Source: Candidatus Poribacteria bacterium (GTDB lineage: Bacteria; Poribacteria; WGA-4E; JAJDTR01). From it: DNA of 34,028 bases. This document shows positions 437 to 7,697 of the stretch, one piece after another. The notes beneath the pieces are model-generated. The model searched no databases. It worked only from the letters and a program-made list of their open reading frames with translations, and was not told the DNA's origin. The DNA lies in NCBI GenBank assembly GCA_028820655.1, contig JAPPIK010000027.1, forward strand, positions 1 to 34,028, in the 5' to 3' direction. Numbering within the stretch: the first letter of the stretch is position 1; each line of letters begins with the position of its first letter. Made by a program: the position numbers and the translations under genes.

Positions 437-1240
437 CTAGAATCCAAATGCGACATTGGAAAAACTGTCATACCAATGGGCGAAGGCGACTTCATCAATC
501 ACCAGTTGTAGGTCATTGTCGACAACGACTTTCTCCGGATCCCCGTGATGGTTGAGTATTGTCTTTTCCGAGTGGCAAAAATGCCTCACCAACACGGTAC
601 GGCCCGCCTCGGTGACGTAACTTACAGTCTGGTGAGTGTCATGCGATTCGAGAGGAATACCTAACTCCAATACGCGGAGACAAGTGAAGTGTCTCTCCCC
701 TATTGTCACGGAAAAAACACCGGCCGCACTAGGTGTGTCGCCTTCCAGACAATGTAGCCGCATAATCGAACCATCTGTCTGGGTGGTGAAAAGTCCGTGG
801 TCCTCCAACAGTCGAGGTATTATTCCCCAGTCGTAGTCAAAATCTCTGTCGAGGTGCGTATATAATAGTCTCTTACCGTCGTGAACTTGTGATACGGCTA
901 GGTATTCCGCAGTTTTGCGTGTGAGCCGACCATACATGTTCCATGGCGGCGAACACCATCCATCGTGCGTTTTCCAGGTTTGGATCGCAATTTCAACCCC
1001 CTCCATACCGTGTACGCTGGCGGCTGCGGTCACCTCCATCTCATTAACTTCGGAAAGTTCCCAAGCATTTGCGGAATAGTCCGCATATAGTGCACGTTCG
1101 CCAATTTTCGGAACGATGAACCACCATCGAAGTTCGGGACAATCCACTGGAAAAGGTTTTGTATGGCTTGGCGCAATGACAACCTCCGGTCTCCGGCGTG
1201 GGAAAGGCTGTTTCGTAGTTCCAGGCGTGTGCCTCGGCAT
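437..1240 (-). CDS. Stand-alone paralog of the sigma-factor C-terminal domain
   Basis: About 267 residues. From 'RRRPEVV' to the terminal 'FGF' it aligns with the C-terminal part of the sigma factor encoded at 1937-3289; by eye about half the residues are identical (for example PELRWWFI, EYLAVS, FTCLRV, HWYDS). It has no sigma region 2 or 4. I recognise no named family, signal peptide or membrane segment; the domain is rich in Trp and Tyr and looks cytosolic. I chose the ATG at 1240 because AGGAG at 1255-1251 lies 10 nt upstream; the frame stays open to a TTG at 1342. The upstream DNA keeps promoter-like boxes shared with the sigma gene, so it probably arose by duplication and loss of the sigma region. 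It could be a regulator or sensor, or a decaying copy, although the frame is intact. Confidence 0.7.
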   Translation of the reverse strand: MPRHTPGTTKQPFPRRRPEVVIAPSHTKPFPVDCPELRWWFIVPKIGERALYADYSANAWELSEVNEMEVTAAASVHGMEGVEIAIQTWKTHDGWCSPPWNMYGRLTRKTAEYLAVSQVHDGKRLLYTHLDRDFDYDWGIIPRLLEDHGLFTTQTDGSIMRLHCLEGDTPSAAGVFSVTIGERHFTCLRVLELGIPLESHDTHQTVSYVTEAGRTVLVRHFCHSEKTILNHHGDPEKVVVDNDLQLVIDEVAFAHWYDSFSNVAFGF

Positions 1241-1246
1241 TCGATC

Positions 1247-1270
1247 ATATCTCCTTTCATATCTCCTTTC
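1247..1270 (-). repeat. Tandem duplicated ribosome-binding site
   Basis: Two perfect 12-bp copies of GAAAGGAGATAT (minus strand), each with an AAAGGAG Shine-Dalgarno core. The proximal copy is well spaced for the ATG at 1240. Each copy also carries an out-of-frame ATG (GAGATATG). Confidence 0.7.
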
Positions 1271-1334
1271 AAAATTAGATCTATCCAAAAATGACGGATG
1301 TAAATCTCTGCGGTCGGGGGCATCATTAAGAATA

Positions 1335-1360
1335 GGCGACAATGGAAAGCAAAAGGTTCG
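1335..1360 (-). promoter_or_regulatory. Putative ECF-type promoter of the paralog
   Basis: Minus strand: CGAACCTTTT (from 1360) and TCGCCTATT (from 1339). The same two boxes at the same spacing, 26 nt overall, occur at 3341-3316 upstream of the sigma gene. A GAAC-type -35 with a C/G-containing -10 is typical of ECF sigma promoters. The assignment is inference from the shared spacing. Confidence 0.4.
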
Positions 1361-1485
1361 GAGAATAGGGTTTTTGCGAGGAAATAAGCGAAATTCGTTG
1401 TGTACGTTTACCTTCCGAAGAGAACGGGTAGGATTACATTGGAAGAATGAAAGTGTGAAAGATTCGCTGCAGGGGGTCGCCCTTA

Positions 1486-1795
1486 GAACCTGTTTGAATA
1501 ATCGGAAGCAAAGTCATTTTGGTCATTTGTAGAAAGTCCTTTCGTGTTTTTATTGTCGTCTGTCACGTACCTGTGGGATCTCTATCGCACTCGTTATCCA
1601 CCCGCTTGATCCCCTCTGGGGCTTAGATGCGTGGGGGTTCGGTGTTTCTATGCACCTTCAAGATCTCTATCGCACTCACTATCCGTTCGCTTGATCCCCT
1701 CTGGGGCTTTTAGAGGCTGGTGCGCGGGATTTCTATCGCGCTCGCTATCCACTCGCTTGATTGCACCCTACAAATTGTATTTTTCAAACAGGCTC
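1486..1795. mobile_element. MITE, 310 bp, TTA target duplication
   Basis: The left end GAACCTGTTTGAA and the right end (reverse complement GAGCCTGTTTGAA) form terminal inverted repeats, flanked by direct TTA at 1483-1485 and 1796-1798. There is no transposase. Inside are three 36-bp copies of an interspersed repeat (1576-1611, 1661-1696, 1727-1762; consensus near GGATCTCTATCGCACTCG then TTATCCACTCGCTTGATC). A TNA-type target and GAGCC-type ends are what I recall for IS5-family relatives (ISL2/IS1031 groups). A second copy is at 7991-8251. Confidence 0.75.
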
Positions 1796-1936
1796 TTAGT
1801 CCTCCCGAACGAAAGAAAAAGCTTGAATGAACTTGTCAATATATCTGCCAGATTCCACAATCCAGCGAATGCCGCCGGGGTGGACCTGCACGTTGCGGAA
1901 AATATTCGAAATCTGAAATTCATTGCTGCCGGTTCC

Positions 1937-3289
1937 TTAGAATCCGAACACTAGGTTGGATATGCTGTCATACCAGTGGTAGTATTCGACGCCGTCGATA
2001 ATATGCCGCAGACGGTAATCAGCCGCGATGCTTTGCGTTTCGCCGGACATCGCCGTTTCAGGACGACGGAAATGCCGCACCATGATCGTCCGCCCAGATT
2101 CGGTCACGTAGCTTTCCGTAATCGTCGCGTCAAGCGCGGTGGGTAGAGCTTCCAACTGAAATACGCGAAGGCAGGTAAAGTTCCTTTCGCCAACCGAAAC
2201 CGAGAAAATACCGGCGCCGCTAGCCTCCATGCTCTCAACATTTTTGATTTGTCTGGGTGAGCCGTCTGCTTGAGTGGAAAAATACCCGCGATCTTCCAAC
2301 TTTCGCGGCATCTGCCCCCAGTCGAAGTCAAAACCTTCGTCAAGGAACGTATTCAGTATTCGCTTGTCATCGTCAAATAGAGATACTGCCAAATACTCCG
2401 TTGTTGTTTCGGTCAGTCGTCCGCACATTTCCCACGTCGACGGCGACCAGCCGTATTCGGGTTCCCAAGTGTGAATCTCAATCTCAATCCCGTCTACGTC
2501 GTGCACGACTGCAGCTCTTACCGTCCGAATATCATGTGCCTTGGAAAGTTCCCACGTCGTGGACTCATAGTCCGCGAACTGCGAACGTTCTCCAATTACG
2601 GGTATGATGAACCACCATCGAAGTTCGGGGCGATCTACGGAGAACGGATCCCCGTTTATTTTCGTGATAACAACCTCTGGTCGACGTACAGGGAACGACT
2701 GTTTCTTGGTGTCGAGTCTGTCAAGGGACGCTGGGACTGTCTTCTCCTTCCGGGAAATTCCAAAGGATTCGCGGAGGTACACCCGTGCGTGAAACAGGCG
2801 CTGTTTGACCGTACCTTCGGGGCAACGACGCCGTGCGGCAATCTCGGAAACCGAAAACCCTTCGAGGTAAAACATTTGTGCTACTTCCCGTTGATCCTCC
2901 GGAGCATGAGCCAGCGCTTCCACCGCATCATCAACCATTTGTCTCTGTCGAATATGTTTATGGCCGAATCGATCTACAAATTGGGTCAATTCGTCTGATT
3001 CGACAGGTAAGTCTCGTCGCTGAGCGGACTTGAGAAAGTCGAAGCACCTATTCCGAGCGATTTGCAGGAGCCATCTTCTCACGGCTTTTGGTTCGCGAAG
3101 ATGGCGAATGCCGAGCCACGCCTGAATCAGTGTCTCCTGCAACACATCATCCACGTGATCGTTGTTCCCTAGTTGGTAGCGAATCTGTGCCACCAACTGC
3201 TGTTCATGTCGGCGAACTAACTCGGCGAATGCGCGTTCGTTTTGCTGCGAGCATAAACGTACTAATGTTTCAACCTCTAGATTTTCCAC
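1937..3289 (-). CDS. ECF-type sigma factor with C-terminal fusion domain
   Basis: About 450 residues. The first 180 or so form a sigma-70 ECF core: region 2 with 'DDVLQETLIQAWLGI' and 'RRWLLQIARNRCFD', then region 4 with 'VAQMFYLEGFSVSEIAARR' and 'PEGTVKQRLFHARVYLRE', the -35-recognising helix-turn-helix. A linker leads to a C-terminal domain of about 265 residues beginning 'RRPEVV', the same domain as the stand-alone paralog at 437-1240. ECF factors usually have under 220 residues, so this is a fusion, possibly with built-in control in place of an anti-sigma factor. I prefer the GTG at 3289: AAGGAG (3304-3299) lies 9 nt upstream, and the putative promoter would start transcription near 3307. 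The ATG codons at 3307 and 3298 are alternatives without proper RBS spacing. No anti-sigma gene is adjacent. Confidence 0.85.
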   Translation of the reverse strand: MENLEVETLVRLCSQQNERAFAELVRRHEQQLVAQIRYQLGNNDHVDDVLQETLIQAWLGIRHLREPKAVRRWLLQIARNRCFDFLKSAQRRDLPVESDELTQFVDRFGHKHIRQRQMVDDAVEALAHAPEDQREVAQMFYLEGFSVSEIAARRRCPEGTVKQRLFHARVYLRESFGISRKEKTVPASLDRLDTKKQSFPVRRPEVVITKINGDPFSVDRPELRWWFIIPVIGERSQFADYESTTWELSKAHDIRTVRAAVVHDVDGIEIEIHTWEPEYGWSPSTWEMCGRLTETTTEYLAVSLFDDDKRILNTFLDEGFDFDWGQMPRKLEDRGYFSTQADGSPRQIKNVESMEASGAGIFSVSVGERNFTCLRVFQLEALPTALDATITESYVTESGRTIMVRHFRRPETAMSGETQSIAADYRLRHIIDGVEYYHWYDSISNLVFGF

Positions 3290-3315
3290 TACGTTCATCT
3301 CCTTCATTTATAAAA

Positions 3316-3341
3316 GGCGAGACACAGAGCAAAAAAGTTCG
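3316..3341 (-). promoter_or_regulatory. Putative autoregulated ECF promoter
   Basis: Minus strand: CGAACTTTTTT (from 3341) and TCGCCTTTT (from 3320), matching the boxes at 1360-1335 with equal spacing. Start of transcription would be near 3307, leaving a leader of about 18 nt that contains AAGGAG. Sharing between the two paralogs suggests the sigma factor may drive both genes. Confidence 0.42.
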
Positions 3342-3419: not shown

Positions 3420-3701
3420 TCAAGAGTGTTCCGGTGAGGAACCTCCACTGATGGCGGGCAGGAAGTGTACTTCGCTATCCTCGGAAATCTGTTGACGCAT
3501 GCCCTCGCGCGTGAGAGCACCGTCCACATAGACGGCAATATTGGGACGGATCTGATCGTCGTCACAGATGCGCGCCTTAAACCCCGGGTAGATTGACTCC
3601 AAGTTGTTAAGGACTTCGCGTATCGTGCTGCCCTTTACCGTGGCTTTCTCTTTGCCATCTGTCAGTTCTTGCATAAGGGATGGGATTGCTACGGTTGCCA
3701 T
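3420..3701 (-). CDS. ThiS/MoaD-like ubiquitin-fold sulfur carrier
   Basis: 93 residues with the beta-grasp pattern of MoaD/ThiS/CysO proteins: 'ATVKGSTIREVLNNLESIYPGF' (helix 1 region), 'IRPNIAVYVDG', then 'EDSEVHFLPAISGG'. These small proteins carry sulfur as a C-terminal Gly-Gly thiocarboxylate for molybdopterin, thiamin or cysteine synthesis. Here Gly-Gly is followed by six more residues, SSPEHS, so the tail would have to be removed before activation, as described for QbsE-type carriers processed by a JAMM protease. It lies downstream of the molybdenum hydroxylase operon on the same strand but about 300 bp away and beyond a terminator-like hairpin. A role in molybdopterin synthesis is plausible from context; a CysO-type role is equally possible. 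Confidence 0.8.
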   Translation of the reverse strand: MATVAIPSLMQELTDGKEKATVKGSTIREVLNNLESIYPGFKARICDDDQIRPNIAVYVDGALTREGMRQQISEDSEVHFLPAISGGSSPEHS

Positions 3702-3935
3702 GAGAGAATTTACCTTTCATTGATATTAGGACTTTCGCGGACACTCAGCAGTTTCTGTATCAAAGATTATTACCTAAATCCCTCCCAAAAAACAAATTGG
3801 AAGGATGGAAGAGTGGAATGGTGGATGTTCACCTACCAGTCCCAGTGTGGTAGGTTGGGTTGAACGGTAAAGAGTGAATGTCTATCACGACACAATGTTG
3901 ATTATGGCTATGACTACTATTCAAATCAAATAGAA
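3702..3935. other. Intergenic stretch, no gene seen
   Basis: About 230 bp between the ThiS/MoaD-like gene and the terminator hairpin. It holds only the region upstream of the minus-strand ThiS/MoaD-like gene (AAAGG at 3718-3714, 12 nt before its ATG). I see no RNA gene, repeat-family member or convincing promoter. Confidence 0.4.
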
Positions 3936-3971
3936 ATGGGGCATTGGAGAAAAACTACCCCAATACCCCAT
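3936..3971 (-). terminator. Terminator-like hairpin after the Mo hydroxylase operon
   Basis: Minus-strand RNA forms a 12-bp stem, AUGGGGUAUUGG with CCAAUGCCCCAU, with one G-U pair and a 12-nt loop, followed by a moderately U-rich tail. On the plus strand the same position would be an A-C mismatch, so the minus orientation fits better. It lies about 30 bp past the stop of the Mo subunit gene. Confidence 0.6.
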
Positions 3972-4002
3972 TAATTTTACAGTTCAATTTCCTACTGGGA
4001 TT

Positions 4003-6258
4003 TTAGATTTTCCCCAGCGCTTTGAGGACACGCTCCGGTGACATCGGTAGTTCCGTCAGCCGAACACCAACCGCGTCGTAGATTGCGTTCGCGATGGCCG
4101 CGGGCGGCGCCACGATCGGGGTTTCGCCGACCCCCCTGACGCCGAAGGGATGACTGGGGTTCGGGACTTCTACGATTACCGCGTCAATCATCGGCAAATC
4201 GTAGGTCGTCGGTATCCGATAATCGAGGAAACTCGCGTTGGTCATCTGACCGTCTTCGTTGTATATGTATTCCTCGTTCAGCGCCCATCCGATGCCTTGA
4301 ACCGCTCCGCCCTGGATTTGACCTTCAACATAGCTCGGGTGGATGGCTTTACCGGCATCCTGCGTCGCTGTATAGCGCAGGATTTCGACTTTTCCCGTCT
4401 CCGGATCGACCTCGACATCGACGATATGCGTCCCGATTGACGAACCTGCGCCCGACGGAGCAACGCTGGCGCGCCCCATCAACGGTCCGCCGGTTTGACC
4501 GAGTTTTTCAGCCAAGCCCTTAAAGTCGATTTCTTCCTCTTTGCCGTTGACGTACCGGAATATGCCGTCGGAGAACTCGATTTCATCTGCATCTACTTCC
4601 CACAACTTCGCGGCACGTTCGATCATCTGCTGCTTCACGTCTTGGGCGGCTTCGTAGGCGGCTAGGCCGGTCGTGAAAGTAGTATGACTTCCACCCGTTA
4701 CGTCCGTGTAGCCAACAGAATTGGTGTCGACCACCGTGGGATGCACGGATTCAGCGGAGATGCCCAGAACTTCCGCAGCTTGCATGGCGATGGAAGCGCG
4801 TGAACCACCGATATCTGTGGAGCCTTCAACAAGACTTATCGTCCCATCCGGATTCACGTTGATCGACACGCTCGATTGAAACGCGAAATTGGGCCAAAAA
4901 CCGGTGGCGACGCCTCGCCCTCGGTATTTGCCTTCTAACGGCGCTGAGTAATGCGGGTGATCTTTTGCCGCTTCGACCGTCTCAACAAAGCCGATTCGCG
5001 GGAAAACCGGACCATCGACACGTGAGTCTCCCTCTTTTGCACTATTCAGGAGCCGGAATTCGATGGGATCCATTCCAATCTTTTTGCATATCTCGTCAAT
5101 AACCGTCTCCGTAGCAAAAGCCACGTTCGTCGAGCCCGGAGCGCGATAGGCATTCGATTTCGGTTTATTGACGAGAACATCGTATGCGTCAATGAATCCG
5201 TTCTCAATTTTGTACGGGGAGAATACGCACATCGCCGCAGCGCCAACGGGAGAACCGGGGTACGCTCCAGCTTCAAAGGCGATGTATGCTTCCGCTGCGG
5301 TGATGCGGCCATCGTTGGTGGCGCCGATTTTCACACGCACGTAGGAAGCAGGTGTGGGACCGGTACTCTCGAACACATCTTCGCGGCTCATCAGAACCTT
5401 GACGGGGCGACCTGACTTCTTCGAGAGAAGCGCGGCGAGAGGTTCAAGGTACACACTGATCTTTCCGCCAAAACCGCCGCCAATCTCCATTGGCACAACT
5501 TTGACCTTGGACACGGGGTGCTGAAGAATCTCCGCCACCTGACCGCGCGCGTTGAACGCACCTTGGGTACTACACCAGATGGTGATTTCACCGTCCGCGT
5601 TATATACGGCGCTTGCGTTGTGGGGTTCGATGTAGCCCTGATGCACGGTGCCGGTCACGTAGTCGTGTTCAATGACAACGTCAGCTTCTGCAAAACCCTT
5701 TTCGATATCCCCTTTCTTGTGTTGAAAATGACTGGCGATGTTGCTCGACTTGTCGGACGCTTTCCCCATTTCGTCTGTCTTCATATCTTCGTGGACGAGG
5801 GGGGCATCGTCTTGCATTGCCGCCCGAACTTCCATGGCAGGCGGCAACACTTCGTATTCAACATCGATAAGTTCTAGCGCTTCTTCGGCAATGTGACCGT
5901 TCAGTGCGGCGACAGCGGCAACGGCGTGTCCCTGATACAGCGCTTTTTCGCGTGCCAAAATGTTGTCACACATGAACTTTAGATTGACGGCACCTTCGCC
6001 GAGGTCAACGATTTTATCTTGCGAAGCGGTCAAATCTCCCGCCGTTACAACCGCCTTGACCCCGGGGTAGGCTTCCGCACGACTCGTATTAATTGATTTA
6101 ATTCGAGCGTGGGCATGGGGGCTTCGCAACACACGTCCGTGCAACAATCCTGCAGCTTGGTAATCCGCACCGTAAAGCGCTCGACCTGTTACCTTATCCA
6201 CCCCATCATGCCGAATGGGACGAGTTCCGATTACCTTGTATTCTTTCTCCACTGCCAT
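4003..6258 (-). CDS. Molybdenum hydroxylase large (Mo-binding) subunit, xanthine dehydrogenase family
   Basis: 751 residues. It binds the molybdopterin cofactor and hydroxylates a carbon of the substrate using water; electrons pass to the 2Fe-2S and FAD subunits encoded just upstream. Visible motifs: 'QGAFNARGQ' (about 231), the glycine loop 'GGGFGGK' (about 261), 'AYRAPGS' (about 367) and 'GVRGVGE' (about 709) with the catalytic Glu. 'AYRAPG' is the xanthine dehydrogenase/aldehyde oxidase type; form I CO dehydrogenase has 'AYRCSFR', so it is not CoxL. Length is normal for the stand-alone large subunit. Its ATG overlaps the stop of the 2Fe-2S gene by one base (TAATG), indicating translational coupling. 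The substrate cannot be told: purine, aldehyde and hydroxybenzoyl-CoA-type enzymes remain open. Confidence 0.92.
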   Translation of the reverse strand: MAVEKEYKVIGTRPIRHDGVDKVTGRALYGADYQAAGLLHGRVLRSPHAHARIKSINTSRAEAYPGVKAVVTAGDLTASQDKIVDLGEGAVNLKFMCDNILAREKALYQGHAVAAVAALNGHIAEEALELIDVEYEVLPPAMEVRAAMQDDAPLVHEDMKTDEMGKASDKSSNIASHFQHKKGDIEKGFAEADVVIEHDYVTGTVHQGYIEPHNASAVYNADGEITIWCSTQGAFNARGQVAEILQHPVSKVKVVPMEIGGGFGGKISVYLEPLAALLSKKSGRPVKVLMSREDVFESTGPTPASYVRVKIGATNDGRITAAEAYIAFEAGAYPGSPVGAAAMCVFSPYKIENGFIDAYDVLVNKPKSNAYRAPGSTNVAFATETVIDEICKKIGMDPIEFRLLNSAKEGDSRVDGPVFPRIGFVETVEAAKDHPHYSAPLEGKYRGRGVATGFWPNFAFQSSVSINVNPDGTISLVEGSTDIGGSRASIAMQAAEVLGISAESVHPTVVDTNSVGYTDVTGGSHTTFTTGLAAYEAAQDVKQQMIERAAKLWEVDADEIEFSDGIFRYVNGKEEEIDFKGLAEKLGQTGGPLMGRASVAPSGAGSSIGTHIVDVEVDPETGKVEILRYTATQDAGKAIHPSYVEGQIQGGAVQGIGWALNEEYIYNEDGQMTNASFLDYRIPTTYDLPMIDAVIVEVPNPSHPFGVRGVGETPIVAPPAAIANAIYDAVGVRLTELPMSPERVLKALGKI

Positions 6259-6746
6259 TACACATTCACCTCCGTAGACATGGTTTCCGCCGCATCAAGC
6301 ACGGCACGGACAATTTTGTCATAGCCGGTGCAGCGGCACAGATTGCCTGCTAGCCAGAAGCGGACATCGTGTTCGGTCGGATTAGGGTTCTCGTTCAACA
6401 ACGCTTTTGCAGCCATGAGGAAACCGGGGGTGCATACACCGCACTGGAGTGCGGCGTTTTCAAGAAACGCATCCTGTATCGGATGGAGTTTATTGTGTTC
6501 TGCCAATCCCTCTACGGTTTCCACCTCTTTGCCCTCAATCTCGGCACCCAGCACTATGCAAGAATTGACGAGCCGCCCGTCCAGAATAACACTGCACGCG
6601 CCGCAGTTGCCGTTGTTACACCCTTCTTTGGCACCTGTCAGCATCAAATTGTCTCTCAACACTTCGAGCAGACTATCACGCGGTTCGCATAGGAACTCCA
6701 CCGCTTCACCGTTAATCACTGTTTTAACATGAACTTTGTCGGGCAT
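6258..6746 (-). CDS. Molybdenum hydroxylase 2Fe-2S subunit
   Basis: 162 residues, the usual size. It carries two [2Fe-2S] clusters that relay electrons from the Mo centre to FAD. The plant-type ferredoxin domain has Cys43, Cys48, Cys51 and Cys63 ('GCNNGNCGAC', then 'NSC'); the C-terminal helical domain has Cys102, Cys105, Cys137 and Cys139 ('QCGVCTPG', 'NLCRCTGY'), so all eight ligands are present. It is the middle gene of the operon: five bases separate its ATG from the stop of the FAD subunit gene, and its stop overlaps the next ATG by one base. The 'CNNGNC' spacing is as in most relatives, though 'GEGQ' is the commoner wording. Confidence 0.93.
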   Translation of the reverse strand: MPDKVHVKTVINGEAVEFLCEPRDSLLEVLRDNLMLTGAKEGCNNGNCGACSVILDGRLVNSCIVLGAEIEGKEVETVEGLAEHNKLHPIQDAFLENAALQCGVCTPGFLMAAKALLNENPNPTEHDVRFWLAGNLCRCTGYDKIVRAVLDAAETMSTEVNV

Positions 6747-6751
6747 TTGGT

Positions 6752-7630
6752 CTATGACTCCTTCACTCTTTGAATCGCGCCGTTGAGCGCACGCTTGGTC
6801 AACACACCGACGAGATGCACTCTCTGCTCGGCGCTGCCGCGCATGTCGCTAATCGGACGAGCTATAGCTTTTGCCGCTTCGGCAGCTTCTTCAATGGCCG
6901 ATTCATCGGAAGCCGACCGACCGGCGAGCAATGCGCTGGCTTCCTCGGCGAACAGAGGAGTAGGGGCAACTGCCGCGAGGGCAATGCGGGCAGAGACAAT
7001 CGACTCTTTGGCATCGTCAAGCACGACAGAAGCACCCGCCCCGACAACTGCGATGTCCATTTCATTGCGTGGAATAAAACGAAGATAAAAAGAACTCGAA
7101 TGACTCTTTGGGGCGGGAATCTTCAAGGATTCGAGAAATTCTCCGTTCTCCAGCACGGTTGTGCCCGGCCCGGTGCAAAACTGTTCGACCGGCACTTCGC
7201 GCGTTCCGTTCGTTCCCGCAATAACACAAATGCCTTCCAAAACAATTAAAGCCGGTATTGTATCTGCTGCGGGGGAAGCATTGCACAAATTGCCGCCGAC
7301 TGCGGCTCTGCCTTGAATCGCCGTGCCGCCGATGATATGGGTTGAATCCGCAAGTGCGGGATAGGCGGATGCTATCGCCTTGTCTCCATATATCTTATAA
7401 CACGGGACAGCCGATCCAAGATGCAAACCTGCCTGTGCGTCACACGTCAATACGTTGGCTTCAGGTATATCCTTGATATCTACAATCCGTTCTAAGTGTC
7501 GTTTGCCTTCACGCACCTGAACGATAAGGTCTGTTCCGCCAGCCAAGACTCTCGCTTGGTCTCCTTTTTCCGCGAGCAAGTCAGCTGCTGCACTGACAGT
7601 CTTGGGGGAAGTATATTCAAACGCTCGCAA
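6752..7630 (-). CDS. Molybdenum hydroxylase FAD-binding subunit
   Basis: About 292 residues. It accepts electrons from the 2Fe-2S subunit and passes them to NAD+ or another acceptor. The N-terminal PCMH-type FAD domain shows 'VLAGGTDLI' and 'GGTAIQGRAAVGGNLCNASPAAD', which hold the FAD pyrophosphate; a CO dehydrogenase flavoprotein-type C-terminal domain follows. I place the start at the TTG at 7630: AAAGGAG (7645-7639) lies 8 nt upstream, whereas the longer reading begins at a TTG that would place that ribosome-binding site inside the gene. It is the first gene of the operon, about 60 nt after the predicted transcription start. No Walker-type or XdhC-like maturation gene is present in the window. 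Confidence 0.9.
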   Translation of the reverse strand: MRAFEYTSPKTVSAAADLLAEKGDQARVLAGGTDLIVQVREGKRHLERIVDIKDIPEANVLTCDAQAGLHLGSAVPCYKIYGDKAIASAYPALADSTHIIGGTAIQGRAAVGGNLCNASPAADTIPALIVLEGICVIAGTNGTREVPVEQFCTGPGTTVLENGEFLESLKIPAPKSHSSSFYLRFIPRNEMDIAVVGAGASVVLDDAKESIVSARIALAAVAPTPLFAEEASALLAGRSASDESAIEEAAEAAKAIARPISDMRGSAEQRVHLVGVLTKRALNGAIQRVKES

Positions 7631-7697
7631 GGTATGATCTCCTTTCAAAATGATGATTTATTCCGTTTGGAGTGTAGTGTTCAATAGATGTGTCTTA

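Follow-up and report, generated by a model that had tools for sequence, protein, structure and literature searches.

An ECF sigma factor with a C-terminal beta domain and a free copy of the same domain are encoded by two neighbouring genes, each lying behind the same predicted ECF-type promoter. With moderate confidence, we regard the pair as a self-controlled ECF system that makes the fused and free forms together, the domain acting as sensor or regulator in place of an anti-sigma factor. The sequences show four features: an ECF architecture with a C-terminal domain, a conserved predicted promoter, recurrent pairing of fused and free domain, and a conserved Shine-Dalgarno (SD) sequence with an ATG at the joint between sigma part and domain. 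The analysed stretch of 34,028 nucleotides, referred to as the window, opens contig 1 in a 61-contig, 5.9-Mb Candidatus Poribacteria assembly.

Table 1. Positions of the fused gene, its stand-alone paralog and associated elements in the window.
Feature	Position	Strand	Remarks
ECF-type promoter of fused gene, GAAC-N17-CGCC	3316..3340	-	predicted; GAACTTTTTTGCTCTGTGTCTCGCC at 3340-3316
ECF sigma factor + C-terminal domain, fused gene	1937..3307	-	456 aa as listed
Sigma70 region 2 (residues 30-98, fused protein)	3014..3220	-	PF04542, 8.8e-13
Sigma70 region 4 (residues 130-176, fused protein)	2780..2920	-	PF08281, 4.1e-10
Joint of window fused gene	2735..2749	-	SD AAGGAG 2749-2744; GTC 2737-2735, 6 nt further, in place of the ATG of orthologs
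C-terminal domain of fused protein	1940..2710	-	257 aa, all-beta; nearest solved folds YmcC-like, at low TM-score
Interspersed repeat with inverted ends, between fused gene and paralog	1482..1799	.	318 bp
ECF-type promoter of paralog, same boxes and spacing	1335..1359	-	predicted; GAACCTTTTGCTTTCCATTGTCGCC at 1359-1335
Stand-alone domain paralog	437..1240	-	267 aa, ATG start, SD AAGGAG 1256-1251

In the fused protein, Pfam names Sigma70_r2 and Sigma70_r4_2 at the residues given in Table 1. Sigma2 and sigma4 without sigma3 is the architecture of ECF factors, and the score of the protein against TIGR02937 was 75.9 bits (cut-off 42.9). The true start is probably the GTG at 3289 and not the listed one at 3307, because this GTG is common to the ortholog in genome G015, which is 59% identical over the full length, and AAGGAG lies just upstream. 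The paralog, located downstream of the fused gene, is 51–52% identical to the fused domain over about 260 aa (E 3e-93). The preliminary description had stated that two tandem genes share the domain and only one keeps the sigma regions, and that no anti-sigma gene is nearby; both statements hold. Neither gene is adjoined by an anti-sigma gene, the upstream neighbour being a ThiS-type gene. This gene for a small protein (profile match) lies within 3420-7648 on the same strand, together with genes that by appearance only encode molybdenum-hydroxylase subunits; in G015, the genes upstream of the fused gene differ from those in the window.

The open reading frame list gives the paralog as 437-1342 with a TTG start at 1342. 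This start is disfavoured because it sits at the -10 box, and the ATG at 1240 is the likely one: AAGGAG is found ten bases upstream of it, and it aligns with an internal Met of the G015 ortholog. There is no third copy of the domain in the 5.9-Mb assembly, which thus holds two in total. The element between the two genes has 21-nt inverted arms (86% complementary) and internal repeats, and a genome search with it found 75 matching pieces spread over many contigs. It resembles a MITE-type repeat and has no part in the sigma/domain mechanism.

The domain of about 257 aa gave no significant match in sequence searches of Pfam, NCBIfam and PDB, carried out with the domain or its alignment, in agreement with the earlier claim that it is new. 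AlphaFold models it as a confident all-beta fold (pLDDT 84, pTM 0.84). In Foldseek comparisons the nearest solved folds were YmcC-like lipoproteins (PDB 4fvs and 3fzx; E 3e-4 to 7e-4, probability 1.0), with TM-scores of 0.37–0.46, below 0.5, and 6–8% identity. The profile and structure searches called for at the outset therefore gave no known family and a fold likeness at low TM-score; these lipoproteins are exported, whereas the domain here would be cytoplasmic in the fusion. From the all-beta model and the low-scoring YmcC-like matches one may reasonably guess, though not claim more firmly, that the domain is a beta structure that binds a ligand. The domain shows no recognised catalytic motif, and the extension of the models contains no long helix, as a transmembrane segment would require. 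The whole fused protein was modelled as separate confident modules joined by a disordered linker; with a pTM of 0.59, docking of the domain on the sigma part is not claimed.

Both genes have the box pair upstream at identical spacing, as had been noted before. Within the window, GAACYTT-N14-CGCC occurs at these two sites only (0.07 expected; 0 of 100 shuffles reached two). The upstream flanks of the two genes show little similarity beyond the boxes, which are therefore not merely a fresh duplicate. The proposed genome scan for a regulon was carried out with exact-pattern searches. The longer pattern GAACNTTTTN11TCGCC has three exact matches in the 5.9-Mb genome, and the only two promoter-placed sites are those of the fused gene and the paralog. 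The third match (L215) lies inside a coding frame, antisense, and was rejected as a regulon site, as was a 25-mer common to the window genome and G015 (L218/L230), which is within coding sequence. With up to one mismatch the genome held 16 matches compared to 10 for a reversed-pattern control; the 13 one-mismatch matches, being this close to the control, were not taken as regulon sites.

To extend the comparison to relatives, 300 bases upstream were searched with the pattern GAAC[CT]TT-N14-C[GT][CT]C. It was present in 8/8 intact members or operons, with about 0.001 expected for each: the window fused gene and paralog, the genes in G015, L166, L167 and L208, and the operon heads in L169 and L175. 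As L169 and L175 are close relatives, the eight cases are not fully independent and are nearer seven. Upstream of stand-alone genes the same pattern was found in 0/35. The positive members span Poribacteria, Armatimonadota and bins labelled Gemmatimonadota, and the -10 element deviates to CGTC in L167 and to CTCC in L208. A frameshifted sigma region 2 with a domain remnant (L042 in G005, 2249-2920), which is without the box pair, was left out of the count. Absence of the pair before orthologs, looked for as evidence against a promoter, was not encountered in any of the eight, and the boxes thus appear to behave as the ECF promoter that had been suggested. A GAAC-type -35 with a CGTC-like -10 before the factor's own gene is characteristic of ECF factors. 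Since the boxes have this shape and are kept in orthologs, the sequences strongly suggest that the sigma factor autoregulates its own gene.

The domain is present in 43 of the 85 genomes of the phylum and absent from the same-genus genome G013, a patchy distribution. Among the roughly 30 best phylum matches, inspected together with some 1.5 kb of flanking DNA to either side, a sigma fusion was seen only in G015, which belongs to another family. The remaining ones were stand-alone genes of about 270–300 aa, and the clusters that were inspected in detail had PhyH, glyoxalase-type, Rieske and amidohydrolase genes as neighbours. When fused and stand-alone copies were surveyed more widely by an alignment search with one genome per species (84,980 species), the fusion was found again in an Armatimonadetes bin (L166), in Gemmatimonadota-labelled bins (L167, L169 and L175) and, with the domain cut short, in a Hebobacteria bin (L208; Armatimonadota by taxonomy).

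Phylogenetic analysis separated a fused clade from a stand-alone clade with support of 100/99. The window paralog falls inside the fused clade, with G015 as its neighbour; most simply, it is derived from a fused gene whose sigma part was lost, as the preliminary description had it. In L169 and L175, a single operon behind the same boxes holds the stand-alone gene, which comes first, and the fused gene; these stand-alone partners belong to the stand-alone clade. Fused and free domain thus came to be paired independently at least twice. The details within the fused clade are unsure, since it also contains a stand-alone Poribacteria gene (L173) and several of its fused members are on long branches.

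At the domain border, an in-frame ATG preceded by an SD sequence is found in 6 of 7 fused orthologs, all but the window gene. The window joint reads AAGGAG-AAGACA-GTC, in which the SD is kept and the start codon is absent; the linker at this point is predicted to be disordered (residues 187-198). In the orthologs the ATG lies 11–12 codons past the end of the sigma profile match and coincides with the start of stand-alone homologs. The SD has at least five matching bases in five of the six and four in L175. When codons were resampled synonymously with the peptide preserved, a match of at least five bases appeared with a probability of 0.02–0.22 per gene. In the relatives, the free domain is probably made from this internal start, and in the window the paralog under the same promoter reads as a replacement for the lost joint start, although this is a single case. 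Production of both forms looks like a kept design, given that relatives of other phyla seem to obtain the free copy from an internal start. Gene fusion could account in part for the SD-like joints, as relics of the event.

The closest studied comparison is with ECF41 factors: their SnoaL-like C-terminal extension regulates sigma activity in the absence of an anti-sigma factor, and they control very few targets (PMC3426412). The present system is like ECF41 in having sigma2-sigma4 with a C-terminal extension, no anti-sigma gene nearby and few targets, and the spacing of its boxes is similar to that of the ECF41 elements TGTCACA-n16-CGTC (PMC3426412). It differs in its -35 element, which is GAACCTT in place of TGTCACA, in its unrelated all-beta domain without a SnoaL match in Pfam, in the free domain copy sharing the promoter, and in the internal joint start of relatives. 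By analogy, we propose that the present system works like ECF41, except that the free domain also takes part and may share the ligand or touch the sigma part. ECF56 SigG1-RsfG likewise combines an ECF factor with a C-terminal domain, but that domain is SnoaL_2 and RsfG is a distinct anti-sigma factor without Pfam domains, not a domain copy (PMC7730460). In IutY and ECF48/52/53, too, a regulatory extension is fused to the sigma factor (PMC8999054); those extensions are anti-sigma-like, membrane-bound and activated by proteolysis, whereas the domain here models as soluble and all-beta. Long and short products from one frame are described for two-polypeptide phage endolysins (PMC9430671) and for Cas11b (PMC11899642); here they are only predicted. 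No prior description of Poribacteria ECF factors, or of sigma factors with internal starts, was found in a search that had most subscription journals outside its reach. According to a 2022 review, regulatory extensions occur in at least 26 ECF groups, of which 15 had yet to be studied (PMC8999054). In the present family the extension is soluble by its model, the promoter prediction is sharp, and fused and free domain are found apart in natural variants; what the free copy does to its sigma factor can therefore be tested directly.

In the proposed mechanism, the C-terminal beta domain would stand in for an anti-sigma factor, both sensing and regulating. The sigma factor would read GAAC-N17-CGCC before its own gene and before the free-domain gene and, with the same promoter on both, the fused and free forms would rise together. 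In most relatives the internal SD and ATG at the joint would yield the free form; in the window, where the joint start would have been lost, the neighbouring paralog would supply it. Binding of a small molecule by the domain would change sigma activity, and the free domain would set the response level, either by taking up that ligand as well or by binding the sigma part in trans. We infer that the sigma factor regulates its own gene, that the internal start is translated, that the domain binds a ligand and that the feedback would be negative.

The free domain could instead be the output of the system, a reading that we consider rather unlikely. The fused copy would then sense, and the sigma factor would make more of an enzyme- or carrier-like domain handling the ligand, as ECF41 factors act solely on the COE gene next to them. 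The restriction of promoter-placed exact sites in the genome to these two genes agrees with this, as does the metabolic setting of the stand-alone homologs next to Rieske, amidohydrolase, PhyH and glyoxalase-type genes; COE genes were the detectable targets of ECF41 and had no effect on signalling in the assay used (PMC3426412). However, the domain lacks a recognised catalytic motif, and the tie of the free to the fused form through the joint start is left unexplained. It is less probable still that the internal SD and ATG are a mere relic of a two-gene fusion and the paralog an unselected leftover of duplication. The coincidence of the joint ATG with the start of stand-alone homologs, and its loss from the window copy, would be expected from a relic, yet the joint signal persists in 6/6 other orthologs that are 35–59% identical to the window protein, and the paralog, at 52% identity, keeps an intact frame and exact promoter boxes. 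That the boxes are no promoter and resemble each other by chance or shared ancestry is strongly disfavoured and very improbable: GAAC and CGCC are short and their near matches in the genome barely exceed the control, but the spacing is identical in all eight cases across the three groups, at the low expectation given above, and the flanks have diverged.

The joint was followed across the phylum in a set of 96 different fused ECF genes taken from ten genomes. It was scored as an in-frame ATG with an SD of at least five bases in a linker zone that runs from 2 codons upstream of the sigma end to 45 codons downstream of it. The signal was present in 61 of 96 genes compared to 26.6 +- 4.6 expected from codon resampling (maximum 39 in 200), an effect size that may be somewhat inflated, since the genes were best matches to the window protein and TIGR02937 and the zone was picked after the first junctions had been seen. 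With an SD of at least six bases, 47 of 96 genes were positive (10.3 +- 3.0 expected). After clustering by similarity the values were 8.8/13 against 3.9 +- 1.0, or 16.6/22 against 6.2 +- 1.4. An SD signal accompanied 32% of in-frame ATGs in linkers, 6% elsewhere in the extension and 4% in the sigma part; none of the 48 out-of-frame linker ATGs of this set carried one, which also speaks against a mere relic. The joint signal was lacking in many long membrane-type extensions of G083 and G084. Outside Poribacteria, the same test could draw on just two usable genes among unrelated ECF fusions, too few to be informative.

The fusion partners were diverse, with LRR, WD40, FtsZ, DNA polymerase beta clamp, ankyrin and others. 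It is quite possible, and we suggest it tentatively, that in Poribacteria and some neighbours ECF factors are one-gene, two-product switches in which varied partners are joined and a working ribosome binding site and start are kept at the joint, the window making the same output through a separate gene under the same promoter. If the joint starts are used, many annotated fused ECF proteins of the phylum would hide a second product. Long C-terminal extensions are common on the ECF-type proteins of genome G000, where more than half of about 31 ECF-type matches over the cut-off lie in frames of more than 300 aa. In G083 and G084, ECF factors are fused in frame to FtsZ-type domains (L087, L096, L097 and L103); Pfam finds the Tubulin/FtsZ GTPase domain in L096 and L103 and FtsZ_C in L103, L087 and L097 being assigned by resemblance. 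Fusions to the DNA polymerase III beta-clamp are seen in L106 (G084), with three Pfam domains, and, by resemblance, in L107 (G083).
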